Source of the DNA: an uncultured Pelagibacteraceae bacterium
GTDB taxonomy: Bacteria > Pseudomonadota > Alphaproteobacteria > Pelagibacterales > Pelagibacteraceae
DNA: 35,576 nucleotides
Direction of reading: 5' to 3'
NCBI GenBank assembly: GCA_902517865.1
Contig: CABYDT010000008.1
Coordinates: forward strand, 1 to 35,576
The notes under the pieces were generated by a model, which saw nothing but the letters and a program-made list of their open reading frames with translations, did no database searches and was not told the origin of the DNA. Position 1 is the stretch's first letter. Each line of letters starts with the position of its first letter. Below, in pieces: positions 31,193 to 35,576 of this stretch. Position numbers and translations under genes: made by a program.

Positions 31193-31305
31193 AATTAATA
31201 GGAGTTTTTTATATTTTAGTAATACTTTTTCTTATACCAAGCTGTGGTAAAAAGGGTCCGCCAGAATATAAAAAACAAACAATCAAACATCACTATAAAA
31301 TATAA
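31189..31305 (+). CDS. lptM: LptM-type small lipoprotein
   Basis: A 38-residue lipoprotein. The signal peptide is MKLIGVFYILVILFLIPS, with lipobox IPSC and lipidated C19. The mature end CGKKGPPEY is the conserved core of LptM (formerly YifL), which in E. coli helps LptD assemble at the BAM complex. It overlaps argH by 4 bases (ATGA) and lysA by one (TAATG), so it is translated in a chain with both. The position before lysA matches the yifL-dapF and argH-yifL-lysA orders of proteobacteria. Confidence 0.88.
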   Translation: MKLIGVFYILVILFLIPSCGKKGPPEYKKQTIKHHYKI

Positions 31306-32534
31306 TGGAAAATTTTCGTTTTAAGGGCAACAAGCTCCTTTGGAATAATTATTCTTTGGATACAATAGCTAAAAAAAATAAAACACCTTTTTATTTATAC
31401 TCTTATAATCAATTAAAAACAAACGTAAGTAATTTTAAAAAAACTTTTAATAAAACAAATCCATTAATTTGTTTTTCTTTAAAATCAAACTCAAACCAAA
31501 AAATAATTAAAGAATACGCTGAATTAGGAATAGGCGCAGATGTAGTATCAATAGGAGAGCTGAAGTTGGCATTAAAATCAAATATTAAACCAAATAAAAT
31601 AGTTTTTTCGGGAGTAGGAAAAACAATAGAAGAGTTAAGATATGCAATCTCAAAGAAGATTTTTTTAATAAACTGCGAGTCATTTAGTGAAGTGAAATTG
31701 ATTAATTCTTTATCAAAAAAAATGAAATTAAAAACAAAAATTGGTCTTAGGCTAAATCCAAATATTAATGCAAAGACTCATAGTAAAATATCTACTGGTA
31801 ACGACAAAGATAAGTTTGGATTATCAAAATTAGAGTTCAAAAAAGTAATTATGAATTTTAAAAATAGCGATTTTATTGAAATATCAGCTTTAACTATTCA
31901 TATTGGTAGTCAAATTAAGGAAGTTTTTCCATTTAATAATTGTCTTAATTTTTTAAACAAAACTATAGCTGATCTAAAGAAAGCTAATATCAAAATTAAA
32001 TACGTTGATTTAGGAGGAGGTATGAGTATTCCATATGACTTTAAGGAAACCAAATTTCCCCTAAAAAAGTATGCTAGTAATGTTTATAATTTTAAGAAAA
32101 AGAACAATGTAAAAATAATATTTGAACCTGGACGTTTTTTAAGTGGTAATGTTGGCATTATTATATCCAAAATTATTTATATAAAAGAAGGAGCCAAAAA
32201 GAAGTTTATAGTAACAGATGCAGCAATGAATGATTTAATTAGAACTGCTTTATATGATGCAAATCATACAATATTGCCTATTAATCGTAGGAAAGAAATT
32301 AAGTCTAGGATAGAATTTGTTGGCCCAATTTGTGAAAGTAGTGATAAATTTGGTGAATATAAGAAGTTCTCCAGACTAGAAGAGAGTGACTATATATGTA
32401 TTACGAATACTGGCGCTTACGGGAGAAGCCTCTCATCAAATTACAATATGAGACCTTTGATTGCAGAATTGCTGATTAAAAATAACAAAATTTTAATTAT
32501 AAGAAAAAGACAAAATATAAATCAAATATCGTAA
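31305..32534 (+). CDS. lysA: Diaminopimelate decarboxylase
   Basis: A PLP enzyme of fold type III that converts meso-DAP to lysine, 409 residues. PLP-binding K60 is in CFSLKSNSN, HIGSQI and the Gly-rich DLGGGMSIPY position the phosphate, EPGRFL is the second family motif, and CESSDKF and NTGAYG contribute the active-site Cys and Tyr from the partner subunit. It completes the lysine pathway whose dapD and dapE lie at 2.5-4.4 kb. Confidence 0.96.
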   Translation: MENFRFKGNKLLWNNYSLDTIAKKNKTPFYLYSYNQLKTNVSNFKKTFNKTNPLICFSLKSNSNQKIIKEYAELGIGADVVSIGELKLALKSNIKPNKIVFSGVGKTIEELRYAISKKIFLINCESFSEVKLINSLSKKMKLKTKIGLRLNPNINAKTHSKISTGNDKDKFGLSKLEFKKVIMNFKNSDFIEISALTIHIGSQIKEVFPFNNCLNFLNKTIADLKKANIKIKYVDLGGGMSIPYDFKETKFPLKKYASNVYNFKKKNNVKIIFEPGRFLSGNVGIIISKIIYIKEGAKKKFIVTDAAMNDLIRTALYDANHTILPINRRKEIKSRIEFVGPICESSDKFGEYKKFSRLEESDYICITNTGAYGRSLSSNYNMRPLIAELLIKNNKILIIRKRQNINQIS

Positions 32535-32536
32535 AC

Positions 32537-33229
32537 GTGAAATTAATCAAATCTTTTATATTCAATATTTGTATCTTTGTTATGATTGCGATTACATGTA
32601 TAATTTCATTGCCTCTTTTGTTTTTGCCTAGAAAACAATTTCTTTCAAAGTTAGTCTATTTTTTAGGTTGGTATTTTATTTTTATATCAAAATTACTGTA
32701 TAATATAAAAATTGAAATATCAGGCCTTGAGAATCTTCATAAACATAATAACTTTATAATAGCGAGCGCACACCAATCTATGTTCGAAACCTTTGTATTT
32801 AATTATCTGGTGCCAGATGCTTTTTTTGTTATCAAAAAAGAACTGTTATTTATACCACTGTATAATTTATATTTAAAAAAACTTGGTTATGTTCCAATTG
32901 AAAGAGAAAAAGTTACTAAAAAAAATTTAAATTTTTATGAGAGAATTTCTCATAATGTATTAATAGAAAAAAGAAAATTAATCATATTTCCCCATGGTAC
33001 AAGAGTTAAAGCAGACCAAGAGTATCCAATAAAAAAGGGTGTTTACAAAATATATAAAAATTTGAATATTCCATGTATTCCAGTTTATCTTAATTCTGGA
33101 AATTTTTGGCCAAGGAATAGCTTCATGAAATACGCATCTAACATCAAGATAATTTTTAAAGAACCTATTTTAGAAGGATTGGAAAATGATGATTTCTTAA
33201 AACAATTATCTAATAAAATTCATTATTGA
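32537..33229 (+). CDS. plsC: 1-acyl-sn-glycerol-3-phosphate acyltransferase (PlsC-like)
   Basis: A 230-residue membrane-bound acyltransferase. An N-terminal membrane segment (~8-30) precedes the catalytic block: AHQSMFET at 78-85 is the H-x4-D/E motif (H79, E84, so the Glu variant), PIERE is block III and FPHGTR at 151-156 is the FPEGTR motif with His for Glu. Both variants resemble those of the proteobacterial KHQSAWET/FPQGTR branch. The start is GTG at 32537, two bases after lysA. Its end overlaps the convergent tyrA by 7 bases. Confidence 0.87.
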   Translation: MKLIKSFIFNICIFVMIAITCIISLPLLFLPRKQFLSKLVYFLGWYFIFISKLLYNIKIEISGLENLHKHNNFIIASAHQSMFETFVFNYLVPDAFFVIKKELLFIPLYNLYLKKLGYVPIEREKVTKKNLNFYERISHNVLIEKRKLIIFPHGTRVKADQEYPIKKGVYKIYKNLNIPCIPVYLNSGNFWPRNSFMKYASNIKIIFKEPILEGLENDDFLKQLSNKIHY

Positions 33230-34128
33230 TTTTTTCGTCCAAAGTTTGGTTCCTTAACATCTTGGCCTTCCTCAACAATTCGCTTCCTAATATCTCTAGT
33301 TTTATCAAAAATATTGAATAATTTTTCCTTATCATCATTTACAATTGCATTTTTCAATCCGTTCAAATCTTTTTCAAATTTCTCTAACATTTTAAGTATT
33401 GGTTCTTTATTACTAAGTATGATGTCTCTCCACATAGTAGGATCCGATGAAGCAATTCGTGTAAAATCTCTAAAACCACTTGCACTATATTTAATAACTT
33501 CCTCTTTAAGATTATCTTCTAATTCGGAAGCGGTACCTACTATATTATATGCAATGATATGGGGGATATGGCTAGTAATAGCCATAATAGAATCGTGATC
33601 GTTCATATCCATTATCTGAATTTTGCATCCAAATGATTTCCACAAATTAGAAATAATTTTAACACTTTTGTCATCAGAATTTTTACATGGTGTTATTATT
33701 AGCCATTTATTATTAAATAAACCTTTAAAACCAGACTCAGGACCACTTTGTTCTGTACCCGCAATAGGGTGTGCCGGTACAAATTTTATATTTTTAGTTA
33801 ATATATTTTGAGCATTTTTTATAACTTCAGTTTTACAGGAGCCAACATCAGTTATAATTGTTTCATTACTAAGCTTAAATTTGTTTAATTTCTCAAATAA
33901 AGATCTGTAAGCACTAATTGGCGTGCAGATAAAAATTATTTCAGTTTTATCTATAAATGTTGATATTTCCTCAAAATAATTATTACCTAAATTTAATTTT
34001 TTAGATTTCTCTAAGACCGTATTTGAATTATCAACAATATTAATAATAACATCATTATTTTTTTCTCTAATATCTCTTGCGATTGATGAACCTATTAATC
34101 CAATACCAATAATTGTTATGTTTTTCAT
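33223..34128 (-). CDS. tyrA: Prephenate/arogenate dehydrogenase
   Basis: An NAD(P)-dependent enzyme of tyrosine synthesis, 301 residues, with no fused mutase or ACT domain seen. The Rossmann motif is GIGLIG at 8-13, VGSCKTEV near 93 and PAHPIAGTEQSGP (catalytic His) near 120-132 follow, and the C-terminal helical dimerisation domain contains SHIPHIIAY and the GFRDFTRIASSDPTMW signature. It starts one base after the stop of the upstream chimeric gene, the usual hisC-tyrA linkage. Confidence 0.95.
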   Translation of the reverse strand: MKNITIIGIGLIGSSIARDIREKNNDVIINIVDNSNTVLEKSKKLNLGNNYFEEISTFIDKTEIIFICTPISAYRSLFEKLNKFKLSNETIITDVGSCKTEVIKNAQNILTKNIKFVPAHPIAGTEQSGPESGFKGLFNNKWLIITPCKNSDDKSVKIISNLWKSFGCKIQIMDMNDHDSIMAITSHIPHIIAYNIVGTASELEDNLKEEVIKYSASGFRDFTRIASSDPTMWRDIILSNKEPILKMLEKFEKDLNGLKNAIVNDDKEKLFNIFDKTRDIRKRIVEEGQDVKEPNFGRKNQ

Positions 34129-34129
34129 A

Positions 34130-35116
34130 TTAAATTTTACTCTCTAATACTTTTAAAAATTTTTTATTTTCTTTATCATTTCCAATCGATACTCTTAAGG
34201 AGTTTTTTATTCTATAAGAAGTCATTTTTCTTAATAAGATATTATACTTTAAGAATATATTAAAAATGTCATCTGAATTTAATTTAAGATTATCACAATT
34301 CATCAAAAAAAAATTTGCACAAGGCTTGTTAATTTTAAATTTCTTTTCTGACAATTTTTTATAGAAAATCTTTGACCATTTAGTGTTGTGTTTAATGTTT
34401 TTATTTAGCCATTTTTGATTGCCTAGCGAAGCAATACCCGCTTCCTGTGTTACACCCGAAATATTAAATGGTGGTCTAATCAAATTGAGAGATTTGACTA
34501 TTTCTTTTGAACTGTAACCCCAGCCAAGTCTCAGATTTGCTATACCATATATTTTAGAAAATGTTCTACAAACAATTACATTTTTAAAATCTTTGAATAA
34601 ATCTAGACCAGATCTAAAATCTTTACTAATCATAAATTCCGCATAGGCATCATCGATCATTAATAATATATGACTTGGAATAAGTGATCTTAATTTTAAA
34701 ATATCTTCTTTACCTAAGTATGTACCAGTTGGATTATTTGGATTTGCAATAAAAATTATTTTGGTTCTATTTGTTATAGATTTAATAGTTTCCTCACAAA
34801 TTTCTTTTGGACCTGTACTACCCATGCACCCACCAATTACATTAGCACAGATAACAAAATACTTGTTTGTATCAATTGGCTTATTTGCTCCAACTACTAA
34901 GTTCCACCAACCATCTTTCCCAGTTACTTTATTGATACCTGTAACAAATTGGTCTCCTGACAAGGCATGAAAAACTAGTATGGCATTTGTCTTGTTTTGG
35001 TCTAGTTTTCCATAAGTTTCAAACGCAATATTAAACTTATCTAGCTGAATACCACAATCCAACAGAAGTTTCTTATTAATAGTTAATTTATTTATTTTAT
35101 CAAAATTTAGTTTCAT
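34130..35116 (-). CDS. In-frame chimera: MetX N-terminus fused to HisC C-terminus
   Basis: A continuous 328-residue frame that joins two unrelated proteins. Residues 1 to ~105 are the start of homoserine O-acetyltransferase Met[35 protein letters not shown] and GGCMGSTGP. From about 107 on it is histidinol-phosphate aminotransferase HisC ([10 protein letters not shown] at 124-133, DDAYAEF at 155-161, [16 protein letters not shown] with PLP-Lys K188, C-terminal SLRVSIG). The join is near 34790-34804. The MetX part lacks the nucleophile Ser, the Asp and the His of its triad; the HisC part lacks the N-terminal ~140 residues. Neither activity is expected to be whole. It is preceded by a SAM-II riboswitch and followed one base later by tyrA. 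A genome rearrangement or an amplification/assembly artefact are both possible. Confidence 0.9.
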
Positions 35117-35121
35117 TCTTT

Positions 35122-35143
35122 AAATCGTATGTTGTTACGATTT
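35122..35143 (-). promoter_or_regulatory. Hairpin between riboswitch and start codon
   Basis: A perfect 8-base stem, AAATCGTA and TACGATTT, with a 6-base loop, sits between the riboswitch's terminal AAAAAGG and the ATG at 35116. Folded, it would bring the AAGG sequence close to the start codon, so it may allow this distant Shine-Dalgarno to act. It has no T run after it and does not look like a terminator. Confidence 0.55.
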
Positions 35144-35192
35144 CCTTTTTAGCAGTTTATGCCTGCAATTTGGCTAAATCGGCGCTTGCATG
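35144..35192 (-). promoter_or_regulatory. SAM-II (SAM-alpha) riboswitch
   Basis: On the minus strand the core reads GCGCC, GATTTAGCC, then TTGCA, GGCATAAA and TGCTAAAAAGG. This follows the SAM-II consensus I recall (GATTTxxCC, TTGCA, TAAA, GCTAAAaAGG), with loop spacing equal to the Agrobacterium metA example. TTTAGC in the loop and GCTAAA near the 3' end are complementary, as a pseudoknot needs. The P1 helix is weak here (clear only as GCC/GGC), which lowers certainty. SAM-II elements of Alphaproteobacteria control metA/metX by hiding the Shine-Dalgarno when SAM is bound. Confidence 0.82.
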
Positions 35193-35197
35193 TTGTA

Positions 35198-35220
35198 CTA
35201 AAAGGTAAAAAAATTGTCAA
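35198..35220 (-). promoter_or_regulatory. Promoter of the metX leader
   Basis: A perfect TTGACA at 35220-35215 on the minus strand is followed after 17 bases by TACAAC at 35197-35192, a 4/6 match to TATAAT. A start around 35186-35190 would place the riboswitch at the very 5' end of the transcript, as expected for SAM-II. Confidence 0.6.
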
Positions 35221-35253
35221 ACTATCTTAGGTTTTACAGTAATGAATAAGTAA

Positions 35254-35259
35254 TATAAT
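35254..35259 (+). promoter_or_regulatory. Possible -10 element for the plus-strand hisC fragment
   Basis: A perfect TATAAT lies 16 bases before the ATG at 35276. TTTACA at 35233-35238 could be the -35 but its spacing (15) is short. If used, the leader would be about 10 bases. Confidence 0.35.
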
Positions 35260-35275
35260 AAGACATAAAATAATA

Positions 35276-35576
35276 ATGAAGTTACCTACAGCAAAAAATA
35301 TACATATTGATAGCTACTCTTCTGGACTATCTAGAATAGTCAATAGCACTAATTTAATCAAATTATCTCAGAACGAGACACCACTTGGACCATGTTCTGA
35401 GGTATCTAAAATTATAAAAAAAAGTTTAATTAATGTGTCACGCTACCCTGACGGTAACTCAAGTTTATTAAGAGAAAAATTAAGTAAAAAATTTAAATTA
35501 AATAAAGATCAAATAATTATTGGATGTGGTTCTGATGAAATTATTAGTTTAGTTTGTCAAGCATTTTTAGATAAAG
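35276..35576 (+). CDS. hisC: Histidinol-phosphate aminotransferase, N-terminal part (runs off window)
   Basis: An open frame of 100 codons from ATG at 35276 to the window end. SQNETPLGP near 32-40, RYPDGNSSLLREKLSKKF and GCGSDEIISLVCQAF are the N-terminal hallmarks of HisC (substrate loop, Y-P-D/E-G, and the G-x-G/S-DE motif of the PLP cofactor site). The part seen stops before the PNNPTG motif. It is exactly the region missing from the chimeric gene on the opposite strand at 34130, and the two do not overlap in content. Whether it continues into the rest of HisC or into MetX is decided outside the window. Confidence 0.9.
   Translation, partial: MKLPTAKNIHIDSYSSGLSRIVNSTNLIKLSQNETPLGPCSEVSKIIKKSLINVSRYPDGNSSLLREKLSKKFKLNKDQIIIGCGSDEIISLVCQAFLDK

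Follow-up and report, generated by a model that had tools for sequence, protein, structure and literature searches.

The last ~790 bases of the window (the whole 35,576-nucleotide stretch of DNA analyzed here, from an uncultured Pelagibacteraceae bacterium) are, with a probability that we put at roughly 0.9, a fold-back (inverted) chimera produced by DNA amplification, library making or assembly. The join was most likely made outside the cell, by a process of this type, and in the cell the gene order is most likely intact, with tyrA(-) and hisC(-) lying next to metX(+). An earlier sequence-only reading had noted that hisC is split onto opposite strands around the metX leader and had offered inversion or fold-back as the cause; the split is confirmed by NCBIfam matches and by DNA comparison with G002, a genome of the same genus, and, of the two causes, the indirect evidence favors the fold-back. 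The observation is sound and its origin is most likely ordinary, an artifact at a contig end.

A single open frame on the minus strand (34130-35116; 328 amino acids) joins part of MetX to part of HisC: residues 9-113 match positions 15-120 of the 381 in the MetX profile NF001209, and residues 104-325 match positions 126-347 of the 349 in the HisC profile TIGR01141 (NCBIfam). A second HisC frame begins at 35276 on the plus strand, matches positions 7-94/349 of the same profile (E = 2.3e-20) and stops at base 35576, which is the end both of the window and of contig C8; this start of the gene has 80% DNA identity to G002 over 301 bases. The DNA of G002 sets the codon limits, with MetX running up to codon ~110 and HisC resuming from codon ~139, so that the C-terminal part of hisC (codons ~139-358; 34130-34792, minus strand; 86% amino acid identity to G002) keeps its ancestral position and strand, and the first ~109 codons of metX (N-terminal part; 34793-35116, minus strand; 82% amino acid identity to G002), the metX leader (35117-35275, minus strand) and the N-terminal part of hisC (codons 1-100; 35276-35576, plus strand) are flipped relative to tyrA. 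HisC codons ~101-138 are absent from the window. Both the MetX and the HisC halves have clean reading frames and are free of decay. Everything to the left of 34790 retains the ancestral order, namely, a gene that we take to be lysA-like (31305-32534, plus strand; 70% identity to the G002 neighbor protein by tblastn), an acyltransferase gene that is presumably plsC-like (32537-33229, plus strand; 80% identity to G002), tyrA, encoding prephenate/arogenate dehydrogenase (33223-34128, minus strand; NF005694, E = 7.9e-119), and the C-terminal part of hisC. The sequence-only reading had placed the N-terminal 100 residues of HisC from 35276 on the plus strand with the C-terminal part on the minus strand, as the NCBIfam matches bear out, and its predicted breakpoints, at metX codon ~105 and hisC codon ~140, lie close to those observed at codons ~109/~110 and ~139.

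The ancestral order can be read directly in relatives. Across 29 relative loci HisC is complete or almost complete, and in 24 of them hisC and metX are divergently oriented and tyrA follows hisC, the layout tyrA(-) hisC(-) / metX(+) that had been proposed and relative to which the second segment of the window is inverted. The other five comprise one locus that lies too near a contig start and four in which metW takes the place of metX; in these four (L011, L013, L014 and L018, from genomes G007, G020, G028 and G036 of a single genus), metW adjoins the start of hisC and metX is found elsewhere. The nearest named relative among eight loci retrieved was the Candidatus Pelagibacter metagenome-assembled genome MED817, with 86% identity over HisC, which places the draft in the Pelagibacter group; the remaining seven loci were distant.

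At the junction (34788-34792, minus strand), located by DNA comparison with the intact metX and hisC of G002, GAAAC, read in the sense of each gene, is common to MetX codon ~109 and HisC codon ~139; the blastn pieces overlap here by 5 bases, a shared length deduced from the G002 genes. The joined segments lie ~0.9 kb apart in the ancestral arrangement, made up of ~415 bases of hisC, the leader of 159 bases and ~325 bases of metX. A growing strand that was copying hisC probably stopped near codon 139; its stalled 3' end would then have met a ~5-base match on the opposite strand, in metX codon ~109 at a distance of ~0.9 kb, and paired there, and copying would have run backwards from there to the metX start, through the leader and into the start of hisC. 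The contig ends ~114 bases before the point at which such a fold-back would re-enter hisC, and the duplicated arm is therefore not seen. The combination of a 100-base end trim with an overlap of k = 55, a value used by SPAdes, was rejected as the cause of this 114-base stop, as it predicts a stop ~68 bases further on.

The draft is divided into 16 contigs, totals 962,553 bases and is 85.59% complete. The junction lies 786 bases from a contig end, and by simple arithmetic a random point would fall within 800 bases of one of the 32 contig ends with a chance of ~2.7%; a true inversion thus needs a coincidence that an artifact does not. The content of the assembly was surveyed with proteins of G002, which holds all of MetX, MetW and GloB (the MetX query also has matches in G002 and G033). 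In this incomplete assembly the MetX query matched at residues 1-114 only, in the window, with nothing found after residue 114; neither MetW nor GloB was found, and the HisC query returned the two window pieces together with distant aminotransferases only. Neither a complete hisC nor a separate complete metX is therefore present in the assembled 85.59%, and the assembly lacks what follows metX codon ~110 on the chromosome. No useful overlap able to close the gap was found among the contig ends of the draft. With the remainder of metX, metW and gloB all absent, the contig stops where the true sequence gives out, and a fold-back chimera bordering on the lost region is a simple explanation of this.

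Joins of this kind have precedents. Among the chimeras from multiple displacement amplification (MDA) tallied in PMC1855051, 406 of 475 (85%) were inverted, most joined segments less than 10 kb apart, and most were primed by microhomology of 2 to 21 nucleotides. The window join resembles them in being inverted, in its ~0.9-kb span and in its ~5 shared bases, and differs from those reported in PMC1855051 in that amplification of this draft is undocumented and its re-entered arm would fall outside the contig. For marine single-cell genomes produced with WGA-X and SPAdes, the figures given in PMC9771814 include 1.5 misassemblies per 100 kb, and the workflow set out there trims 100 bases off contig ends; the window join, likewise a rearrangement close to the end of a contig in a draft of marine origin, is in keeping with the errors of such assemblies (PMC9771814), although the workflow behind our draft is itself undocumented. 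A sequence that continues as its own reverse complement reportedly marks the fold-back (palindromic) reads obtained in whole-genome amplification, and here only the loop side of that pattern is seen. One paper is also said to treat the hotspot preference of such amplification chimeras.

The best of the alternatives, that the segment comprising the start of hisC, the leader and the start of metX has truly inverted in the genome and destroyed both genes, is nevertheless improbable. It predicts the visible junction and the flipped segment, both of which are present, and a nearly equivalent join occurs in a genome of another genus (G080), but neither a second junction nor the MetX C terminus is found in the 85.59%-complete assembly, and each of the two genomes has its junction less than 0.8 kb from the end of a contig. 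Inversion would also have removed steps of the histidine and methionine pathways, yet neither frame has decayed. Nor do the breakpoints carry the inverted repeats that might be looked for: a repeat search revealed no long inverted-repeat arms at the two places, and the longest words common to the breakpoint regions, 5 to 9 nucleotides in 24 relatives, do not rise above a background mean of 6.7 (576 window pairs), so that a conserved inverted repeat is not supported as the cause. When the predicted reciprocal protein, HisC N terminus joined to MetX C terminus, was used as a query against 397 genomes of the family, none of the matches listed spanned the join; a spanning match is expected near the top of the ranking. 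Such a frame would be no proof of inversion in any case, because a fold-back from the other side yields it too.

The join in G080 weighs on the other side. With the chimeric protein as the query against the same 397 genomes, it was the sole end-to-end match besides the window among the matches listed, aligning over residues 5-325 at 56% identity without a stop; the 397 include the genome under study, and both this search and the reciprocal one detect in-frame joins only. Contig C9 of G080 (L077:1-1145) begins within the metX leader, joins MetX residues 1 to ~105 in frame to HisC residues ~129-354, and then keeps the ancestral succession of tyrA, plsC and lysA. Its breakpoints lie ~4 codons from those of the window in metX and ~10 in hisC, which marks it as an independent event; the shared sequence is GAAA within an imperfect CTAARGAAA, the blastn pieces overlap by 14 bases, and the join is ~0.47 kb from a contig end. 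Neither the MetX C terminus nor the HisC N terminus was found elsewhere in G080, no other genome of its genus (23 searched) has the same join, and in that genus metX and hisC are on opposite strands wherever both are listed on one contig. Since the words shared by the breakpoint regions are of background length, a conserved inverted repeat does not explain the recurrence, which points either to a hotspot for chimeras or to coincidence.

Two nearly equivalent in-frame joins in different genera exceed what random artifacts would lead one to expect, and this, together with the undocumented amplification and a re-entered arm that is not seen within the contig, counts against the chimera. If the G080 join is no coincidence, it marks either a hotspot for artifacts or a locus that is genuinely unstable, the latter being less likely. 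We consider it very unlikely that the hisC/metX locus of the Pelagibacteraceae truly and recurrently inverts, with breakpoints near metX codons 105-110 and hisC codons 129-139 and in-frame chimeras in at least two genera.

Still less probable is a partial duplication or translocation that has left intact hisC and metX genes in the unassembled part of the genome. An assembly that is 85.59% complete does leave room for missing parts, but no second copy of any part was found in it, and the neighboring genes are all in the ancestral order up to the junction. A functional MetX-HisC fusion protein can be dismissed as scarcely credible, for although the join is in frame in two genera, the product would be without the N-terminal third of HisC and two thirds of MetX, and among the matches listed it occurs end to end in just 2 of the 397 family genomes, in both near contig ends.

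Support for a fold-back chimera also comes from elsewhere in the same draft. Terminal frames at 27 of the 31 other contig ends were scanned with Pfam (the remaining four belong to contigs C15 and C16, which consist of N throughout), a procedure that detects in-frame joins only and that at the start of C4 took in the second frame and not the first. At five of the 27 (the starts of C6 and C9 and the ends of C4, C7 and C14), no Pfam match was obtained in the terminal frame. One further chimeric-looking frame emerged, in the last ~1.4 kb of contig C9 and ~0.3 kb from its end (L073:3641-4999, minus strand), and this second chimeric open frame counts in favor of the artifact. It matches the UDP-glucose/GDP-mannose dehydrogenase family in Pfam from profile position 66 only, at residue 99, and most dehydrogenase relatives align to it from residue ~92 only; residues ~18-112 match a separate frame of ~340 amino acids in other genomes. 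The N-terminal 93 residues gave no match in Pfam or NCBIfam, and this part may be glycosyltransferase-like. Exceptions are provided by G016 and G060, which align from residues 17-22, and by G052, which aligns from residue 16; these alignments count somewhat against a clean join in C9.

Taken at face value, the draft describes an organism without intact hisC and metX and with a MetX-HisC fusion, and the case serves as a warning: a split gene or a fused protein at the end of a draft contig can be a fold-back chimera.

The metX leader carried on the flipped segment has features of its own. Within the 159 bases that separate the hisC and metX starts, a promoter-like TTGACA box is conserved across 25 aligned leaders, and words of the SAM-II aptamer type (GATTTA, AATTGC and GCTAAA) occur on the metX strand with small changes among the 25. 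The corresponding model, RF00521 (SAM_alpha/SAM-II), scores 13.3 bits for the window leader and 26.2 bits for L027 against a gathering score of 36, and no Rfam match reached the gathering score in the window leader or in any of 20 sources. For Candidatus Pelagibacter ubique, a SAM-II riboswitch that precedes metX has already been published (PMC2704228), and the window leader, with a divergent, predicted SAM-II-like element at 35128-35192, would thus belong to a known kind as one of its low-scoring members. In both the window and G002, which belong to the same genus, the first stem of the element appears to be shortened to ~GCC/GGC.
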